A stretch of 11,534 nt of DNA from Herminiimonas sp. (GTDB lineage: Bacteria > Pseudomonadota > Gammaproteobacteria > Burkholderiales > Burkholderiaceae), in NCBI GenBank assembly GCA_014377155.1, contig JACMQD010000301.1:1-11534 (forward strand), written 5' to 3'. The position numbers were made by a program, and so were the translations under genes. Below the pieces are notes generated by a model. That model made no database searches. It was given only the letters and a program-made list of their open reading frames with translations, and had not been told where the DNA came from. Below are positions 1,250-11,534 of this stretch, piece after piece; within the stretch, counting starts at the first letter, position 1; each line of letters starts with the position of its first letter.

Positions 1250-1633
1250 GTGAGCAAACCCTGTCCATTCTGCACCTTAGCTCCCGAAAGGATCATCGAC
1301 ACCAATGGCACTGGCGTTGTAATTGCCGATGGTTTTCCGATTTCACCGGGCCATACACTCGTCATCCCGCAACGCCATGTCGCTTCATTTTTCGAACTTG
1401 ACTCCAGGGAGCGGGAGGGTTTGCTGGCATTGGTTGACCGCGCGAAGGCCACGCTCGATCGGGACCTGCACCCCGCCGGCTACAACATCGGCATTAACGA
1501 TGGCGCCGCTGCAGGACAGACGGTCCCTCACCTGCACATTCATCTGATCCCACGCTACGACGGCGACCAGAAAGATCCACGTGGCGGTGTACGCTGGATT
1601 TTTCCGGACAAGGCAGACTACTGGACGCCGTGA
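1250..1633 (+). CDS. HIT-family nucleotide hydrolase
   Basis: A 127-residue histidine-triad protein. HIT enzymes hydrolyse or transfer nucleotides at an alpha-phosphate, for example splitting ApnA, AMP-lysine or adenylated nucleic-acid ends, through a covalent nucleotidyl-histidine intermediate. The signature PHLHIHLIPR is complete, with His94, His96 and His98. Asn83 in GINDG and the upstream ISPGHTLVIP strand also fit the family. Cys5 and Cys8 (PCPFC) form a CxxC pair typical of zinc-binding HIT proteins, with His43 a possible further ligand. After the triad comes a tail of about 25 residues (DPRGGVRWIFPDKADYW), longer than in minimal HIT proteins. The start is GTG with a good ribosome binding site, and no earlier start fits. 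The stop codon overlaps the HNH gene by four bases (GTGA), so the two are probably translationally coupled. The substrate is not known. The context suggests nucleotide-signal or nucleic-acid-end processing in a defence operon, but plain ApnA housekeeping cannot be excluded. Confidence 0.92.
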   Translation: MSKPCPFCTLAPERIIDTNGTGVVIADGFPISPGHTLVIPQRHVASFFELDSREREGLLALVDRAKATLDRDLHPAGYNIGINDGAAAGQTVPHLHIHLIPRYDGDQKDPRGGVRWIFPDKADYWTP

Positions 1634-2691
1634 CGCATCGGTCGTGGCCGGAACCGGACGCGGCTGCGCGGCTCGCGTTCCTCCAGCATTTGCAGCGCCT
1701 GTTCCAGGAAGGCGATTTTTCAGCGACGTACAAGTACGCATTGCTGCTCGCGCTGGCCGAGCTGGCGATCGAATGTGACTGTGCCGATGGCGCACCGCTG
1801 GAGATTCCGATGCGCCGCCTCGCTGACAAATTCGCAGAGTTCTACTGGCTGCAGGCCACGCCCTATATCGGTACGCATGACCACGACGGCGTCCTGATCC
1901 AGAATAAGGGCAAGCAGGCGGCAGTCGTTCGTCACCTGATCGCCCTGCGCGCGACTGGCGCCACGACGCTGGCGCAAGCGCACCAGCATCCGCGCTGGAA
2001 CAGCACGATCCGCGACATCGCAAAAGTCGTTCGCGACATGCCAGTGCGCTTCCTGCAAAACATCCCTGGCGGTACCGTCCATTTTCTGTACGACCCGGAG
2101 TCGGCGCAAACATCGCTGACCTTGTTACCAGGCGTCGCCTTCAACTTGCGCCGGTTTCAGGGGTTCATTCAGCAGCTGGTTCGTGCAGGTTGGGTCAATC
2201 ACATCAGGAGCAACCGGTGCAATGCGCATCTAGTGGGCGCGGGCGCCGATCTCGAATCCTTCATGTTCGGAACACCCCGCGCCTTACTGGCAAAGGTTCA
2301 GAAGGTCCTCGCGCCCATGCAGGACCACCGGTGCTTTTTCTGCGCCGAGGCGCTCGATACCCGGACCGCCGTGGACCACTTCATTCCCTGGTCGCGGTAC
2401 CCGCGCGACACCGCACTGAATTTTGTCGTGGCACATGCGACATGCAATGCCGACAAGCGCGACCTGTTGGCCGGCGGGCGGCACCTGGAGCGCTGGCTGG
2501 TGCGCAATGGCCGCGATGGCGACACGATCTCGGGCGAATTACAGCTGGCTGGTTTTTCATCCGAGCCGGGCGTGGCATCGACGGTGGCTTCGTGGGCATA
2601 CGGTGAGGCGGTCACGGCAGGTGTGCACGTCTGGCAGGCACGCGGCCAAACGGAACGGATCTCACCTGATCTGTTGCGGGCGTTTGCATGA
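1630..2691 (+). CDS. HNH endonuclease with unassigned N-terminal region
   Basis: A 353-residue protein with a C-terminal HNH (beta-beta-alpha metal) nuclease domain at about residues 230-280. Visible motif residues are Cys235 and Cys238 (CFFC), Asp249-His250 (DHFIPWSRYP), Asn264 (LNFVVAH), Cys272-Asn273 and Lys276 (CNADK). This is the usual order of a zinc-supported HNH site, so metal-dependent DNA cleavage is expected. Residues 1-230 look mostly helical, with charged and aromatic patches (TYKYALLLALAELAIE at about 33-48). I cannot assign them to a family; they may recognise the target or partner proteins. No signal peptide or membrane segment is seen, so the protein is probably cytoplasmic. 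The GTG start at 1630 overlaps the HIT stop codon and has only a weak Shine-Dalgarno, which fits translational coupling. The helicase gene starts 46 bases after the stop. The nuclease assignment is firm; the defence role is inferred from context. Confidence 0.9.
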   Translation: MTHRSWPEPDAAARLAFLQHLQRLFQEGDFSATYKYALLLALAELAIECDCADGAPLEIPMRRLADKFAEFYWLQATPYIGTHDHDGVLIQNKGKQAAVVRHLIALRATGATTLAQAHQHPRWNSTIRDIAKVVRDMPVRFLQNIPGGTVHFLYDPESAQTSLTLLPGVAFNLRRFQGFIQQLVRAGWVNHIRSNRCNAHLVGAGADLESFMFGTPRALLAKVQKVLAPMQDHRCFFCAEALDTRTAVDHFIPWSRYPRDTALNFVVAHATCNADKRDLLAGGRHLERWLVRNGRDGDTISGELQLAGFSSEPGVASTVASWAYGEAVTAGVHVWQARGQTERISPDLLRAFA

Positions 2692-2737
2692 GGCCGGTTG
2701 AAACGTCAGTCTTGATCAACCACTATAAATCTGCTCA

Positions 2738-5700
2738 ATGACACTTCCCCAAGGCCTGTACGACCGCTTGATCAATGAAGACGAAGTCGCGTCACTCGAT
2801 TCGATTGCTGCGGCTTTTGGGGCGTTGATCGACAAGCCGTCGCGGGCACAGCAACGCGAACATTTGATCGACTCGCTGACGGCACGATTGCCCGAACTGC
2901 TTGATATCGTTGCCAACGGTGCGAAGGGCGATGCCGAACAATCGCGCGCCGAGTTGCAGCTGATTGCGGGGCTTCTACGCGAAGCGCGCAAGCTGGGTGG
3001 CGATGACGCGGTCGGCGCTTCTCCAGCAGAGCCGCTACGCGTACTGCGCGCCTTGCATGCCCCGAGCGTCGTGCCGATCCTGCCGCAGACCGGGCTGCGT
3101 CAGCCCTGGATATTTACCTCTGCGCGTACCGACCCGTCGCTCTTGAACGAGCTTCGTGCCGAGCTCAGTTCGGTTGATCGGGTCGATATCCTGGTGAGCT
3201 TCATCACCTGGAGCGGTGTGCGCAAGCTGATCGATGTCCTGCAACTGGCGACTGCACAGGATGCGAACGGTCAGCCCCGAACCCGATTCCGTATCCTGAC
3301 GACGACCTATATCGGCGCGACCGAGGTGAAGGCGGTCGATGCGCTCGCCGCCCTTCCGGGCGTCGAACTCCGGATTTCACTCGATGGTCGTCGGACGCGG
3401 CTGCATGCCAAAGCGTGGCTCTTTCACCGCGCGACCGGATTCGGCACCGCGTTTGTTGGCAGTGCCAACCTGTCCGAGTCCGCACTGATCGGTGGCATCG
3501 AATGGACCGTCAAGTTCACCCAATCTGGAAACGTCAATCTGTACACGGCAGCCTGCGCGAACTTCGAGACGCTGTGGAACGACGGGGAGTTTCAGCTTTA
3601 CGATCCGCGGGATGAAGAACAACGGACCGCCTTGATGGTTGCGTTGACTGAGCAACGCCGGCGTCCAGGCAGTAAGGCCGACACTTCGGAACCGATTTCG
3701 ATCCACACCTGGTTCGACCTTCGTCCCAAAGCCTATCAGCTTGAAATGCTGGAACGCCTTGCCGCCGAGCGCAAACACGGGCGCATGCGCAATCTGGTCG
3801 TGGCTGCCACCGGTACGGGCAAGACGGTGGTCGCCGCCTTCGATTATCAACGCTTGGCGCTGAAAGAAGGCAGTCCCCCACGACTGCTTTTCATCGCGCA
3901 TCGCATCCAGATATTGAAGCAGGCGCTCGCAACATTCCGGCAGGTGCTTCGGGATCCATCGTTTGGTGATCTGATGGACGGAGAAAATGCGCCGTCGCAG
4001 ACCACCCATCTTTTTGCGACGATCACGACTATCCATTCGCGCCAATTGGTTCAGCAGCTTGGTGCAGAGTACTGGCGCGTCGTGGTCGTCGATGAAGCGC
4101 ATCACTTGCCCGCGACCACCTTCGATCAGTTCGTCACTACGATCCGTCCGCACATCCTTCTTGGTCTGACCGCCACGCCGGAGCGCACTGATGGTCGCAG
4201 TCTGAATGCCTACTTCGATTGCCGTCCAGATGGTTCGCCTGCGGTGTCACTTCGACTTTGGGACGCGCTCGGGCAGCAGCTACTGGCGCCCTTCGAATAC
4301 TATGCGACTGCCGATGACACAGATCTACGCAGCGTCAGCTGGAATCGCGCAGAGGAAGTCAGCAAGCTCGACTCCCTTATTTCGAGTAATACAGTGCGCG
4401 CACGCCTGGTCATCGAAGCGCTGCAACGCTACGTGTCGCGCCTGGATCAACTCAAGGCGGTCGTGTTTTGTGTGAGCGTGGCCCACGCCAGGTTCATGGC
4501 ATCGTGCTTCGAGCAGGCAGGGCTGAGGGCATGCAGCCTGACTGGCGCGAATTCCACGACGGAGCGCGACCAGGCGATTCGCGATCTGCGTGGCGGCACC
4601 ATCAAATTGATCTGCACGTGCGACCTGTTTAACGAGGGTGTCGATATTCCTGAAATCAATACGCTGCTGCTTTTGCGACCGACCCAAAGCGCAGTGATTT
4701 TTCAGCAGCAGATCGGCCGTGGGCTGCGCTTATCTGATGGTAAGGACAGTTGCCTGGTTCTCGACTTCGTCGGGATGGTTGGGGACGGGTTTCGCTTCGA
4801 TACCTTGCTACGATCGATTACCGGCCAGACTCGTGCCCAATTGAAGGATGCGGTTGAAAACGGATTTGGCCTGCTGCCGACCGGATGCCACATCCAGTTC
4901 GACCGGGTCGCGCGTGAGCGGGTGCTGTCGAGCCTGCGCAGTGCGCTGCAATTCAATGCCGTCAGGTTGAGGCAGGAACTTGCGGCCTGGGCTGCATTGC
5001 GGGTGGGGAAGCCGATCCGCTTGAAGGATTTCATACGGGAGAACGCGCTGACGCTGGCCGATCTTTATGCGAACAATCGGTCGTGGACCAGCTACAAGCG
5101 CGATGTCGGGCTACCGGTTGACCCACCGGGGACCAGGGAATTGGAGCTGTCGCGCAGGATGGGAAGCCTGCTGCACACAAATGATCCGGAATTCATCGAG
5201 TTGTGGGGCAAAGCGTTCGTGACCGGCGAAGTGCATCAGGTGCGCATGCAGATGCTGGCCTATCAGGTGTTGCCCGATGCGGGTGAACTCATCACACCGG
5301 ATGGTTTCGCCGCGCTCATGCATGCGCATCCGGCTTTGCGCGATGAGATTCTGGAAATCGGCGAATGCCTCATGGATGAGACAACCGTGTTCTGGGAAGC
5401 GCTTCCGGTGGCCCCGGCCACATGGCCGCTATCACTGCACGCACGCTATGGGCGGCGGGAGATCCAGGCGGCGATCGGGCACATCACGCCAACCACCCGA
5501 CCGCAATTCAGAGAGGGATGCTTGCCGCGCCCGGCAGAGAAGATCGAGCTCATGTTCGTCACGCTCGACAAGCGCGAAGGCTTTGGCGAGACCGTACAGT
5601 TTCACGATTATGCGATCAGCCCGGAACGGTTTCATTGGCAGACGCAGAACCGAGCCGGTCAGAACAATGCCACGGGCAAGCGGTATCTGGAGAGCAAAAC

Positions 5701-5878
5701 GAATGGCTGGGGATTTCAGCTGTTTGTTCGGGAAGATACGGACAGCGCTTTCATTGCGCTGGGGCCGGTCGACCTTGAAAGCTCCGAGGGTGACCGGCCG
5801 ATTTCGATTGTCTGGCGACTGCGGGTACCGATGCCGATCGAGATGTTCCGGAGGTTTAGTGTGTTGCGGGATAGTTAG
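2738..5878 (+). CDS. PLD nuclease-SF2 helicase fusion with DUF3427-like C-terminus
   Basis: A 1046-residue protein in three parts. (a) Residues about 125-290 form a PLD-like nuclease domain with His223-x-Lys225 (LHAKAW), GSAN at 241-244 and Glu255 (GGIEW). The aspartate of the full HxKx4D motif is replaced by His230. (b) Residues about 325-680 form a superfamily 2 helicase of the ResIII/DEAH type. Visible motifs are motif I GTGKT (359-363), motif II DEAH (452-455), motif III TAT (478-480), a motif V region (FNEGVDIPEIN, 631-641) and motif VI QQIGRGLR (657-664). (c) Residues about 700-1046 fit the DUF3427 region known from such fusions, with a beta-rich end (FHDYAISPERFHWQTQ, then NGWGFQLFV). 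The protein is expected to move along DNA or RNA with ATP and to cut it through the PLD site. The ATG at 2738 is the only usable start, since an in-frame TGA lies at 2699-2701, but it has no clear Shine-Dalgarno. The reading frame is intact. No T-tailed terminator follows; 5885-5910 holds two weak hairpins only. Confidence 0.93.
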   Translation: MTLPQGLYDRLINEDEVASLDSIAAAFGALIDKPSRAQQREHLIDSLTARLPELLDIVANGAKGDAEQSRAELQLIAGLLREARKLGGDDAVGASPAEPLRVLRALHAPSVVPILPQTGLRQPWIFTSARTDPSLLNELRAELSSVDRVDILVSFITWSGVRKLIDVLQLATAQDANGQPRTRFRILTTTYIGATEVKAVDALAALPGVELRISLDGRRTRLHAKAWLFHRATGFGTAFVGSANLSESALIGGIEWTVKFTQSGNVNLYTAACANFETLWNDGEFQLYDPRDEEQRTALMVALTEQRRRPGSKADTSEPISIHTWFDLRPKAYQLEMLERLAAERKHGRMRNLVVAATGTGKTVVAAFDYQRLALKEGSPPRLLFIAHRIQILKQALATFRQVLRDPSFGDLMDGENAPSQTTHLFATITTIHSRQLVQQLGAEYWRVVVVDEAHHLPATTFDQFVTTIRPHILLGLTATPERTDGRSLNAYFDCRPDGSPAVSLRLWDALGQQLLAPFEYYATADDTDLRSVSWNRAEEVSKLDSLISSNTVRARLVIEALQRYVSRLDQLKAVVFCVSVAHARFMASCFEQAGLRACSLTGANSTTERDQAIRDLRGGTIKLICTCDLFNEGVDIPEINTLLLLRPTQSAVIFQQQIGRGLRLSDGKDSCLVLDFVGMVGDGFRFDTLLRSITGQTRAQLKDAVENGFGLLPTGCHIQFDRVARERVLSSLRSALQFNAVRLRQELAAWAALRVGKPIRLKDFIRENALTLADLYANNRSWTSYKRDVGLPVDPPGTRELELSRRMGSLLHTNDPEFIELWGKAFVTGEVHQVRMQMLAYQVLPDAGELITPDGFAALMHAHPALRDEILEIGECLMDETTVFWEALPVAPATWPLSLHARYGRREIQAAIGHITPTTRPQFREGCLPRPAEKIELMFVTLDKREGFGETVQFHDYAISPERFHWQTQNRAGQNNATGKRYLESKTNGWGFQLFVREDTDSAFIALGPVDLESSEGDRPISIVWRLRVPMPIEMFRRFSVLRDS

Positions 5879-7076: not shown

Positions 7077-7997
7077 TCAGGCTTTGATGGGAAAGGCGCT
7101 TCTGCAGCGGGGGAAGTTCAAGCATCCATGGAATGGACCACGCTTGCCTTCACGCCGAACCATCTTGATGCCGCACGACGCACAGGACGGCGTGCTGTAG
7201 TCACCCTCGAACGCAAAGGCGAGCAGCGCTTTCTGTGCCGATTCCGGCAGGCCGCTGATCTTCGCCAGAAACGCAGGTCCGTCGATGAGCTGGATCGGAT
7301 TGGCAGATGCAAATGCGATCGCCTCGTTGCTGAAGGTGGAGGTCGTCACTAAAATGCCGCGTCCGACCTTCCCCGACGTGATCACGCCAAGGAGTTCGCG
7401 TGCTGTCACTACCCCGACTTTTGCATTGTTGCGCGCCTTGCATTGGACCAGCGCGATTGGATTGTTCGGATCGCTGCGGTAGAGCCTGATATCGATGCCG
7501 CCATCTGGACCGAATGGGATGGTCTCCGTCTTGAATCCTGCAGCTTCGTAGTACTTTCCGCAGAGCAGTTCAAAGCGCTTCCATTCGATTGCGCGGAGTG
7601 CGTCCAGCGTCCATTCGTGGAAGGTGGTCGCCGTTGCGGTGGATTGCCCGGAAGCTGCTGCGTTATGACCCCATTGCTCTTGTCCAGCGGTCTGGCTGGA
7701 ACGGGCCGTCCATGGCGGCATCGGGCGGTGACCATTCGCCGATGCAAGCGGTTGCATCTGTTGTAATGCATTTGGCTGTGTCAGTGAGCGCACCCAGGCG
7801 ACCAATGCAACCATGCCAAACAGCACCACAGGCATCCAGGCCAGTGAAGGTCCGACCGGCTTCAGGATAGGCGGCAGTAGCGCAGGCATAATCCATCGAC
7901 AGGCAATGTACCCACCGGCCGCGAAGGACCCACTTACCCACCACGGCAAGACGACCAGGATGTCGACCAGACTTTCTGCTTTTTTGCGACGCGCCAT
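7077..7997 (-). CDS. Membrane-anchored Mrr-type restriction endonuclease with zinc finger
   Basis: A 306-residue protein from the ATG at 7997. It has three parts. Residues about 10-39 and 53-72 are two hydrophobic membrane segments. A low-complexity Gln/Ser/Ala linker follows to about 125. An Mrr_cat nuclease domain spans about 130-250, with Glu143 (FELLC), Asp165 and Asp169 (GPDGGIDI), and Gln185-x-Lys187 (VQCKAR). The D...QxK set is the known catalytic signature. The C-terminus is a topoisomerase-type C4 zinc finger with Cys272, Cys275, Cys292 and Cys298. Mrr-like enzymes cleave DNA, often methylated or foreign. This two-helix plus Mrr plus zinc-finger layout puts a nuclease at the inner membrane, but its target is not established. 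The frame stays open to 8225. I rejected that longer start because the extra 76 residues are AT-rich at the DNA level and precede the basic MARRKKAES start. The ribosome binding site at 7997 is weak. Confidence 0.88.
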   Translation of the reverse strand: MARRKKAESLVDILVVLPWWVSGSFAAGGYIACRWIMPALLPPILKPVGPSLAWMPVVLFGMVALVAWVRSLTQPNALQQMQPLASANGHRPMPPWTARSSQTAGQEQWGHNAAASGQSTATATTFHEWTLDALRAIEWKRFELLCGKYYEAAGFKTETIPFGPDGGIDIRLYRSDPNNPIALVQCKARNNAKVGVVTARELLGVITSGKVGRGILVTTSTFSNEAIAFASANPIQLIDGPAFLAKISGLPESAQKALLAFAFEGDYSTPSCASCGIKMVRREGKRGPFHGCLNFPRCRSAFPIKA

Positions 7998-8058
7998 ACC
8001 GTTAGTACCTGCGAGGATGTAGTGCTGGGAAACCCGGGTCTGGGTTGACTGCCTATTA

Positions 8059-8085
8059 AATACTAAAAAGTTGCCTTGTAGTATT
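8059..8085. promoter_or_regulatory. Inverted repeat in the probable Mrr promoter region
   Basis: AATACTA (8059-8065) and TAGTATT (8079-8085) are exact reverse complements separated by 13 bases. They lie 62-88 bases upstream of the ATG at 7997, in an AT-rich segment. On the minus strand TTTACG and TAATAC, separated by about 18 bases, could be a weak -35/-10 pair overlapping the repeat. An operator is possible but unproven. Confidence 0.3.
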
Positions 8086-8252
8086 AATTTGAGATTGATC
8101 GAGTCGTAAATTGCATTAGTGCGACACTTTTCAGTTGCCGGGCGAGGCTCAAACAGCGTATGAGGCAAGTCGATAGATTCCCTGAGTACTGGCGCCGTCT
8201 TTTCATGTGAGCTCGTGCCTTCCATCAGTTCCCTTTACCCAACTACGGTCCC

Positions 8253-8824: not shown

Positions 8825-9064
8825 TTATTGCAGGGCTTCGTCAAGTTTTGTGTGGAGTATACGCATACGTTCTTTTGTATCCTTTGATAAGCCCTGTGCG
8901 TTTAATAGCGGTGTCAGTCGAAATCTCAAAATCATAAATATTTCCGTTCCTGAAGTACCGTCTTTTATAGCATCAAGAATTTGCACCGACTCGGACGCCA
9001 TACCCTGCGCTGCAAGCAATGCAGCGATTTTTTTTGCTTCTTCGTAATGATCGTAAATATCCAT
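8825..9064 (-). CDS. Candidate Rhs immunity protein
   Basis: A 79-residue protein, probably all helical, with no signal peptide or membrane segment. I do not recognise a named family. It begins MDIYDHYEEAKKIAALLAAQG and ends in a charged helix (HTKLDEALQ). Immunity to the preceding toxin is inferred from position: it starts 12 bases after the Rhs stop codon on the same strand. This is where immunity genes of polymorphic toxins normally sit, so that producing cells are protected by direct binding of the toxin domain. DNA composition supports a transferred pair: 8881-8940 is 38% GC against 68% in the Rhs core at 10741-10800. The ATG at 9064 is the first start after the toxin. The ribosome binding site is poor (ACTGAGTC), so translation may depend on coupling. 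The next plausible structure downstream is the stem-loop at 8653-8674. Confidence 0.75.
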   Translation of the reverse strand: MDIYDHYEEAKKIAALLAAQGMASESVQILDAIKDGTSGTEIFMILRFRLTPLLNAQGLSKDTKERMRILHTKLDEALQ

Positions 9065-9076
9065 TTTTGACTCAGT

Positions 9077-10003
9077 TTATTTTGTACCAAAATAATGTAA
9101 TCGAACACCGCCGGGCGGAACAACCACTTCAATGCCTCCACCTGGATTTGGTCCGACTGCCGGTGCAGGACGTGTAATGTACGGCGATCCAGGCGGAACA
9201 CGTGCCATCTCAATAAAGTCTGCATTCACAACGTTCTCAGGAGGGATGCCATATCGACCAGCATAGCCCGGATTCGCTGGATTTTCGAGTGACCAAAACT
9301 GCGCTTCCCCTGCCTGACTTTTACCAAGTGTGCCAATTCGATAGAGCGTTGCTCCTTGATCCACTTGAGCGCGCGCTGCCATAGCTGCTGCATTAGAGCT
9401 TTGCAGCGCATCACCATATGGAGTGGCAATGGCTTTGGGAATCGGATCTAAAATTGTGCCTTTGCTCGCCGTTACCTTATTTGCCCCAACAGAATCGATA
9501 CTGAGGAGTGCATTTCTTCCCGTAGTCGCTTGGCCTCGGACATAGGCAATAACATCCCGAACCCCATTCGCAATACGCGTCAAGCCACCATTCCGAGTGA
9601 TACCCACTGCCCCCGCAGCACCGCCACCAATCCCTCCGGCCGCCGCAACCAGTTTGTTAGCCGCTATGCGTGCAGCCGCAGTCAGGTCTGGATCGCACTT
9701 TGCGGTTGTAGCGCCGTTATGCAACGCCATCACGGCTTGGTATAAATCGATTACGCCAGATCCCAATGCGTAATAGCTCAATCCGAGGATCGCTGCATCC
9801 ATGATCCAACCAACAGGTGTACCTTGGGTTACAGCCCATGCAGCAAACACCGCCCCCATCGCCGCCACATTCCCCGGCTGCACCATCTCCAGCAACGCCG
9901 CACCAATCTCCCCCGGCACCATCGGCGCCGTGCGCTTGACGATCTCGACGAACTTGTCTTCGTAACTGGCCTTGCTCCAGTCCGTGGTGGCAGCGGTGGG
10001 TGC
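9077..10003 (-). other. Rhs C-terminal toxin module, possible ADP-ribosyltransferase
   Basis: This part of the Rhs gene encodes the variable tip after the DPLGL motif. Its first half is hydrophobic and glycine-rich: codons at about 9880-9713 give AAMGAVFAAWAVTQG and WIMDAAILGLSYYALG, followed by GGIGGGAAGAVG. It may help the toxin cross a membrane. The last 113 residues (about 9418-9080) look like the enzymatic domain. They contain LYRIG, AQFWSLENP, YAGRYGIPPENV, a second Arg in YITRPAP, and GGGIEVVVPPGGV near the end. An Arg in an LYR strand, a middle FWS.E segment and a late Glu in GGGIEVV fit the R-S-E order of ADP-ribosyltransferase folds. This is a pattern match by eye, not a confirmed family. 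The coding DNA from about 9077 to 9835 is less GC-rich than the core. Confidence 0.5.
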
Positions 10004-11534
10004 GAGGCCCAACGGATCGGCCATCGTTTGTGGCCGGTTTAGCGCAAACGCATGCAGGTCCGGACCGACTGCGAGACCGAGCGGGTCCGGCGTCAGGTAG
10101 CGCCCGGCAACCGGGTCGTAATAGCGGCGCGTGTTGTAGTGCAGGCCGCTTTCGCGATCGAAGTACTGGTTAGAGCCGCGCAGGTCGAAGGACACTGCGC
10201 CGAAGTGCGCGCCGCTTGCGGGCGTGGCCTGCAGATAGTCGGCCACGTTCGCCTGCCAGACGACGTTGCGGGAAGCGTCGGTCAGGGCAAGAGGTGCATT
10301 GCGGTGGTCGGTGTGGATCGCGTAGAGCTGGCCGCGTCGCAGCAGGGCGACCGGCTTGTCATTGATCCAGATGTATTGGCTGGCGTCTTGTCTGGTTGCT
10401 TCTGCCATGACGGCGGGTCGCTTGCCACCGGCCGATGTCTGCCTGATCCCTGGCTTGCCGTCAGAGGACTGTCCCGTCGGCTCGCCTTCGAATGCCAGTT
10501 GGCTGCCATCATAAAAATAATGCGTGGTCCGGGTTGCGTTGCCGTTGGTGAGGGCAACGGTCTTGGCGATGCGCTGGCCGAACAGGTTGTAGCGATAACG
10601 CGCCACGGGGGCCGGGCCGCCATCGGTCGCGCGTTCGATGCCGGTCAGCCGGTTCAGGCTGTCGTAGCTAAAGCGTAATGCACCCTTGCGGATCTGGCGG
10701 TCGTGTCCATCAAAACTGGCAGCACCGAGATCGGGCTGGATGCCGGGAAGGGTCAGGGAGGTTGTCTCGGCCTCACCCGCGCGATCGTCCCACTGTGTGG
10801 AAATGCGGTGAATGCGACTTCGCAGGGCTTGCACGACCGTGGCGTCTGCGTAGGTCAAGGCACGCTGTCCCGGTAGTACAGGATGCATGGTGCGCACGCT
10901 GGTCGGGTAAGCGGGGTCGGTCGGCGCCGACGTGCCCGCATACTGCAATCGCGTCTGCCCGACTTCTTCATTGCCGGCGCTGACGACACGCCCTTGCCGG
11001 TCGAGCAGCACGGTGTTCGGCAAGCCATTCCCGAAGCGCAGGGTGCGGCGCGCGTAACGGTCGGTGGCGTCATTCATCCCGGCGACGATCGGCCGGGCGA
11101 GTGCGTCGTTCGTCAACGCGTTGGCGGTGTCGCTGGCAAATCCTTGGAGCCAGACCGATTCGAGCAAGCCGGCGCGTGGATGCGCGGTGTCCCGATAACG
11201 GTAACGCAGGGTCTGGCCATCCGGAAGGGTCTTGCCCGTAATCCGGCCGGCACTGTCATAGCGGTAGTGCAGCGTGTAGTGCTGACCATCGACGGTCTGC
11301 TCATGGGCGATCAGGCGATTGGCGGCGTCGTAGTCGAACCGCTCTTCGCCTGCCAGATAAGTGATGCGCACGGGTTTGCCTGAGCGGCCCCATGCAATGG
11401 TGGCGTTTTCATCGAGGGTGTTGCCGGCGCCGGTGGCGCGCAGCGCAATGACGCGACCGGCAGCGTCGCGCTCGTAGTCGGCATGGCTGCCATCCTGACG
11501 TGCCTCGCCCACGATGCGGTCGGCAGCGTCGTAG
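9077..11534 (-). CDS. Rhs polymorphic toxin, 5' end outside the window
   Basis: The C-terminal 818 residues of an Rhs/YD-repeat protein; the frame is open to the window edge and the start lies beyond 11534. YD repeats are visible throughout the core (YDAADRIVG at the edge, then FDYDAANRL, YRYDSAGRITG, FSYDSLNRLTG, YNLFGQRI). These repeats build a hollow shell that encloses the toxin. The core ends with a segment like YYDPVAGRYLTPDPLGL and then PQTMADPLGL, an exact PxxxxDPxGL motif. In Rhs proteins this motif marks autoproteolytic release of the C-terminal toxin; here the cut would fall after the codon at 10004-10006. About 308 residues follow (9077-10003). The protein is probably delivered by a type VI or other export system, but no VgrG, PAAR or adaptor gene is in view. 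The candidate immunity gene follows after 12 bases. The frame is intact. Confidence 0.93.
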   Translation of the reverse strand, partial: YDAADRIVGEARQDGSHADYERDAAGRVIALRATGAGNTLDENATIAWGRSGKPVRITYLAGEERFDYDAANRLIAHEQTVDGQHYTLHYRYDSAGRITGKTLPDGQTLRYRYRDTAHPRAGLLESVWLQGFASDTANALTNDALARPIVAGMNDATDRYARRTLRFGNGLPNTVLLDRQGRVVSAGNEEVGQTRLQYAGTSAPTDPAYPTSVRTMHPVLPGQRALTYADATVVQALRSRIHRISTQWDDRAGEAETTSLTLPGIQPDLGAASFDGHDRQIRKGALRFSYDSLNRLTGIERATDGGPAPVARYRYNLFGQRIAKTVALTNGNATRTTHYFYDGSQLAFEGEPTGQSSDGKPGIRQTSAGGKRPAVMAEATRQDASQYIWINDKPVALLRRGQLYAIHTDHRNAPLALTDASRNVVWQANVADYLQATPASGAHFGAVSFDLRGSNQYFDRESGLHYNTRRYYDPVAGRYLTPDPLGLAVGPDLHAFALNRPQTMADPLGLAPTAATTDWSKASYEDKFVEIVKRTAPMVPGEIGAALLEMVQPGNVAAMGAVFAAWAVTQGTPVGWIMDAAILGLSYYALGSGVIDLYQAVMALHNGATTAKCDPDLTAAARIAANKLVAAAGGIGGGAAGAVGITRNGGLTRIANGVRDVIAYVRGQATTGRNALLSIDSVGANKVTASKGTILDPIPKAIATPYGDALQSSNAAAMAARAQVDQGATLYRIGTLGKSQAGEAQFWSLENPANPGYAGRYGIPPENVVNADFIEMARVPPGSPYITRPAPAVGPNPGGGIEVVVPPGGVRLHYFGTK

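Follow-up and report, generated by a model that had tools for sequence, protein, structure and literature searches.

A HIT family protein tied to DNA nucleases in a putative restriction cassette of Herminiimonas sp.

A stretch of 11,534 nucleotides (nt) from Herminiimonas sp. (contig JACMQD010000301.1), in the following called the window, contains three open reading frames (ORFs) in one direction, which encode a HIT protein, an HNH protein and a large protein with PLD nuclease, SF2 helicase and DUF3427 parts (Table 1). In an initial annotation, the three tightly packed genes had been proposed to form a defence operon with an intact HIT triad, an intact HNH site, and a PLD-SF2 helicase fusion with a DUF3427-like end. 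The close packing was verified, with an overlap of 4 nt between the HIT and the HNH gene and a gap of 46 nt between the HNH gene and the helicase gene, and the description of the catalytic sites and of the fusion was also borne out, as detailed below.

Table 1. Coordinates of the three genes and of their domains in the window.
Feature	Position	Strand	Evidence
HIT-family hydrolase or transferase, 127 aa	1250..1633	+	PF01230, E 6.8e-24; triad His94/96/98
HNH endonuclease, 353 aa	1630..2691	+	PF13395 (HNH_4), 24.1 bits vs cut-off 22
HNH protein N-terminal domain, residues 8-216	1651..2277	+	ScoMcrA sulfur-binding-like fold; weak, fold level only
HNH catalytic and zinc region, residues 235-278	2332..2463	+	Likeness to Cas9 HNH domain
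SauUSI-related protein, 1046 aa: PLD nuclease, SF2 ATPase, DUF3427	2738..5878	+	
PLD nuclease half-site, residues 196-280	3323..3577	+	His223, Lys225, Gly241-Ser242-x-Asn244
SF2 helicase-like ATPase core, residues 328-665	3719..4732	+	Pfam
DUF3427 region, residues 897-1040	5426..5857	+	E 8.5e-19; Phe940, Val941, Asp957, Trp967 align with SauUSI pocket

The HIT protein has the histidine triad within its HIT domain, which places it in the HIT superfamily. The triad is located in QTVPHLHIHLIPR, and all of its histidines were kept in 51/51 rows of an alignment of the window protein with 50 paired HIT proteins (one locus was counted twice, L076/L124). It is followed by the subfamily signature DxxDPRGGVRWxxPxKAxYW, the beginning of which, DxxDPRGGVR, is common to the HNH-paired and the helicase-fused HIT proteins in the alignment; the HNH-HIT chains described below differ at the first letters. 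The nearest solved structures are HIT family proteins, diadenosine tetraphosphate (Ap4A) phosphorylase and Fhit. The latter two have the histidine triad and the fold family in common with the window protein, which differs from them by its own C-terminal signature and by its genetic tie to nucleases.

In the HNH protein the catalytic residues Asp249-His250 and Asn264 were conserved in 87/87 sequences, and the putative zinc ligands Cys235, Cys238 and Cys272 stood beside them in all 87. The arrangement of a C-terminal HNH nuclease and an N-domain with a weakly similar fold resembles ScoMcrA and other endonucleases with a sulfur-binding domain (SBD-HNH). The window protein differs from them in that no sequence match to them was found and it has no SRA domain; moreover, its family has a HIT or methyltransferase partner. 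When sequence support for a sulfur-binding domain was sought, no above-chance Pfam match was found among 38 members of the HNH family, a PDB profile search yielded no ScoMcrA chain at E ≤ 10, and a Foldseek search with the whole HNH model gave nothing at E ≤ 0.001. When the model NF045808 was compared with 40 genomes, only matches below its cut-off were obtained, in 7/40, and the three ORFs that were inspected by eye did not resemble SBD-HNH proteins.

The large protein exceeded the Pfam cut-offs for ResIII, Helicase_C and DUF3427, and PLDc_2 reached 18.0 bits, which is under the cut-off of 27. The PLD residues His223, Lys225 and Gly241-Ser242-x-Asn244 were nevertheless kept in 120/120 close relatives. 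The comparison with SauUSI, a type IV restriction enzyme of Staphylococcus aureus (PDB 7clg), gave 256 bits across residues 124-778 (chain 7clg_A), and the PADLOC model mREase_IV matched with 642 bits across residues 107-1037. Judged by these alignments, the protein is homologous to a known restriction enzyme, and the earlier view of the genes as defence-like is supported. The two proteins have the same domain order, with the SF2 helicase-like ATPase preceding DUF3427, and share the HxK and GSxN motifs, His223 and Lys225 matching the HxK residues of SauUSI. The modified-cytosine pocket of SauUSI is built from Met829, Tyr831, Phe841, Ile842, Asp858 and Trp868; four of the six are covered by the alignment and correspond to Phe940, Val941, Asp957 and Trp967, in a stretch that scored only 9.6 bits, and Asp957 and Trp967 were invariant in 120/120 relatives. 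The window protein differs by about 110 additional N-terminal residues. It is regarded as a relative of SauUSI that is probably modification-dependent; strict membership of the SauUSI type is not claimed, because the Glu of the HxKx4E motif (Glu126 in SauUSI) is replaced by His230. According to its structural description, SauUSI is a dimer with an active site formed by the PLD domains; modified cytosine is read by the C-terminal domain, which adopts an SRA fold, and this recognition triggers translocation driven by adenosine triphosphate (ATP) (PMC7913695). Binding of modified DNA by DUF3427 had already been predicted in a 2020 survey (PMC7159879). SauUSI is described as acting as a single polypeptide (PMC3874153). 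In contrast, the window protein has HIT and HNH genes upstream, and its relatives have HIT, methyltransferase or NUDIX partners.

The partners of the HNH gene were determined in 80 HNH loci (L001-L080), using the same strand and a spacing of -60 to 250 nt as criterion. A HIT gene was present in 43 loci, a gene for a small S-adenosylmethionine (SAM)-dependent methyltransferase in 22, and neither in 15. In three of these 15 loci (L047, L048, L071) a methyltransferase appears among the called genes, and in L041 a Pol-beta nucleotidyltransferase lies beside the HNH gene. In a sample of 392 genomes of one family, HIT adjoined 12/13 HNH genes, and the 13th was truncated by the contig end. From a further HNH clade, the second and only distantly related (hhalign probability 97%), seven of ten plasmid records were opened; they contained HIT in two cases, an annotated class I methyltransferase in two and neither in three. 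The possibility that the partner in Acinetobacter is a DNA methyltransferase of a classical restriction-modification (R-M) system was rejected, since Pfam assigned it to the small-molecule-type Methyltransf_25/TehB.

The same subfamily of HIT was also found fused to nucleases. In L152 a single chain comprises HIT, PLDc_2, ResIII and DUF3427, that is, HIT is fused to the N-terminus of a SauUSI-like protein. A search with its HIT end retrieved 1251 proteins out of 1864 candidates, which had been selected by length, so that stand-alone HIT proteins were excluded by design. Among the 120 listed of these 1251 matches, all had HIT and helicase Pfam domains, 118 kept HxHxHxxPR and 119 kept the PLD motif. 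In addition, a different HNH domain (PF01844) is joined to a C-terminal HIT of this subfamily in single chains of L127, L132 and L135, and also of L128 and L133; a shared N-domain of these chains and the window HNH protein was rejected (hhalign probability 0.6%). The HNH-HIT chain of L133 adjoins an EVE-HNH-like gene. The small methyltransferase is likewise fused to the N-terminus of PLD-SF2-DUF3427 in L150 and L167, and is encoded directly upstream of other SauUSI-like genes, as is a NUDIX protein that is nearest to MutT. L150 additionally has a Peptidase_S24 match. Altogether, two genome samples gave 34 distinct helicase loci, of which 11, including the query's own locus, have a HIT, methyltransferase or NUDIX partner. 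Taken together, HIT is tied to DNA nucleases through conserved operons and fusions, and its place can be taken by a small SAM-methyltransferase, by a NUDIX hydrolase and, in L041, by a Pol-beta nucleotidyltransferase. In the open-access literature no report on HIT together with HNH or DUF3427 enzymes was found, the subscription literature being mostly outside the search, and the passages on DUF3427 in two open-access articles do not mention HIT.

The partner labels are not scattered over the HNH tree, as only 11 changes were required, compared with a mean of 32.5 for shuffled labels. The HIT and HNH distances were correlated (r 0.56), and 0/2000 permutations were as high; shared descent alone would give the same correlation, with or without interaction. 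Judging from record titles, HIT-HNH loci occur in Pseudomonadota, Planctomycetota, Verrucomicrobiota, Acidobacteriota and Gemmatimonadota, and the second clade adds Bacteroidota. A phage origin was rejected, because there were zero HNH matches in 50,697 phage records. Among viral contigs the helicase search revealed no relative, and the search with the HNH alignment gave two loci, one of them with merely a short partial match.

The tie between HIT and nucleases was supported, in a form wider than first proposed; the part of the initial annotation that joined all three genes into one operonic system was not. A related helicase was found near HNH in 4/80 loci (L002, L035, L048, L080), with weak matches in L012 and L046 left uncounted, and also on three plasmid records that were opened. 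In the 392 genomes (helicase threshold E ≤ 1e-100) the helicase was present in 8 and HNH in 13, and both were present in one genome, on separate contigs; five of the 13 HNH-carrying genomes, and the sole one with both genes, had been added because they carry HNH. A single conserved three-gene system was rejected on these counts, and conserved co-occurrence, the lack of which the initial annotation had named as speaking against its proposal, was thus largely missing.

This result raises the possibility of mere clustering in defence islands, in which HIT-HNH would be a module of two genes that stands by itself, and the SauUSI-like gene of the window would have landed alongside it without joint function. 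Apart from the rarity of helicase neighbours and the one genome with non-adjacent genes, it is favoured by HIT-HNH pairs that stand alone (L001, L118, L176), and by the many systems that the pair or a lone HNH adjoins, i.e., Dsr1, Hhe, GmrSD-like, type I and type IIG R-M and EVE-HNH-like genes. Of 30 hand-picked proteins in or beside the cassettes, for which there was no control set, 16 matched a PADLOC model at E ≤ 1e-8, including Dsr1, Hhe, type I and type IIG methyltransferases and GmrSD-like proteins; some of the 16 matches are generic (WYL, DEDDh, mad2), and the methyltransferase and NUDIX partners account for two. However, that this HIT subfamily works with such enzymes is evident from the HIT-PLD-SF2-DUF3427 fusions, and the HNH and SauUSI-like genes meet in several gene orders. 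These are HIT-HNH-helicase in the window, NUDIX-helicase-HIT-HNH (L002), helicase-HIT-HNH (L035), HNH-NUDIX-helicase (L080) and, in the second HNH clade, HNH-HIT-insertion element-NUDIX-helicase (L185). The last row, from Bacteroidota, is an independent gathering of the trio of the window. By rough arithmetic, about 0.02 helicase neighbours would be expected by chance in 80 loci, a figure that clustering of defence genes would raise. Clustering without joint function is a serious contender, to which slightly less than an even chance is given.

With somewhat more confidence than doubt, we favour the reading that the window encodes a small cassette for the restriction of modified DNA, composed of a SauUSI-related nuclease-translocase, a McrA-like HNH nuclease and a HIT accessory protein. 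By analogy with SauUSI, the large protein would bind modified cytosine of incoming DNA through its C-terminal domain, which in SauUSI has the SRA fold; ATP hydrolysis would then power translocation and the PLD dimer would cut, as has been demonstrated for SauUSI. The HNH protein may cut DNA that is selected by its own N-domain. The substrate of the HIT enzyme may be a nucleotide or a nucleotidylated compound generated while the nucleases work, and the enzyme may thereby protect or tune the system. Several observations weigh against this cassette. The 1046-aa helicase subfamily is mostly devoid of any such partner, and neither HIT nor HNH nor another partner was found beside helicases of this type in the nine loci from the eight helicase-carrying genomes of the 392. 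The partnered helicase loci amount to just 11/34, one being the query's own, and several partner scores were low (34-43 bits). HNH loci lacking both HIT and methyltransferase make up 15/80 by the first criterion, and 11 after tree labels plus L041 with its nucleotidyltransferase. The His that replaces Glu126 was found in 110/120 relatives, PADLOC contains no HIT-HNH system and matched the window HNH protein just with generic HNH models, and some HIT-HNH pairs lie amid apparent housekeeping genes (L118, L120; by eye).

The HIT slot is interchangeable, and therefore the helper probably handles a common small substrate, rather than belonging to the cutting site. In one alternative, the HIT protein would cleave Ap4A or other dinucleoside polyphosphates by hydrolysis, or strip adenosine monophosphate from adenylated DNA or RNA ends, and so control a signal or repair ends while restriction proceeds. 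The nearest solved structures named above are in accord with it, as are the name "diadenosine tetraphosphate (Ap4A) HIT family hydrolase", which the Joint Genome Institute (JGI) gives to many of the fusions, and the fact that NUDIX, here closest to MutT, likewise includes nucleotide hydrolases. Yet the names are purely automatic, and a small methyltransferase in place of HIT does not obviously fit; this role is regarded as rather unlikely. As a very improbable alternative, HIT would serve as a desulfurase or pool cleaner: phosphorothioate-like DNA would be read by the HNH protein via its sulfur-binding-like N-domain, and HIT would turn nucleoside 5'-phosphorothioates into phosphates and keep the mark out of host DNA; the foundation of this idea is a weak fold match together with general biochemistry. 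A HIT protein is also attached to type II Thoeris in the form of ThsC (PMC8565338). The match of the window HIT protein to the ThsC model of PADLOC was weak (48.9 bits), and no ThsA or ThsB match was obtained among the eight window proteins scanned. The preferred role for HIT would be that of a helper that handles products from the cutting of marked DNA. It is tempting to speculate further, if only as a long shot, that HIT, the small methyltransferase, NUDIX and the Pol-beta nucleotidyltransferase belong to one class, hitherto unrecognised, of helpers that can replace one another beside modification-dependent nucleases. By neutralising the small products (modified or thio-nucleotides) that the cutting of marked DNA leaves, they would prevent the mark read by the nuclease from ever re-entering host DNA, a self-protection replacing the protective methylation of ordinary R-M systems. 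To our knowledge, type IV restriction enzymes have no protective methyltransferase.

Further genes were noticed in the neighbourhood of the cassettes. In the window, close to the cassette, a gene at 7077-8225 (-) encodes an Mrr_cat nuclease that carries a zinc ribbon of the topoisomerase type; it is possibly another modification-dependent restriction gene. An RHS-repeat protein is encoded at 9077-11533 (-) and extends past the window end; directly downstream of its gene lies an ORF of 79 aa (8825-9064, -), which could be a partner or immunity gene. A NOV_C protein of about 380 aa (PADLOC PDC-S36, similar to PD-T4-1 and TmtA) recurs beside HIT-HNH (L014, L022, L039, L042, L046, L121). In L018 and L019 an HNH gene without HIT is part of a large operon with genes for 1191, 1327 and 1229 aa and a WYL regulator, which looks BREX-like by eye; only the WYL match was computed. 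Related helicases seemingly adjoin gyrB in L109, L111, L112 and L115 (by eye, from ORF starts), possibly a hotspot of restriction genes, and in L089 and L110 the helicase copy is interrupted by one internal stop codon in the match, which suggests gene decay there.

The fusions provide a domain-based reason to label many HIT-PLD-helicase-DUF3427 proteins, which are currently named just helicases or Ap4A hydrolases. The fusions, and the replacement of HIT by other small enzymes, point to an as yet unexplained chemical helper in the immunity of bacteria. A catalytic helper that several nuclease families carry as a fused domain, share an operon with or have next to them in exchange for another enzyme would also give a direct handle on the question of how hosts of type IV enzymes avoid self-damage after the digestion of marked DNA.
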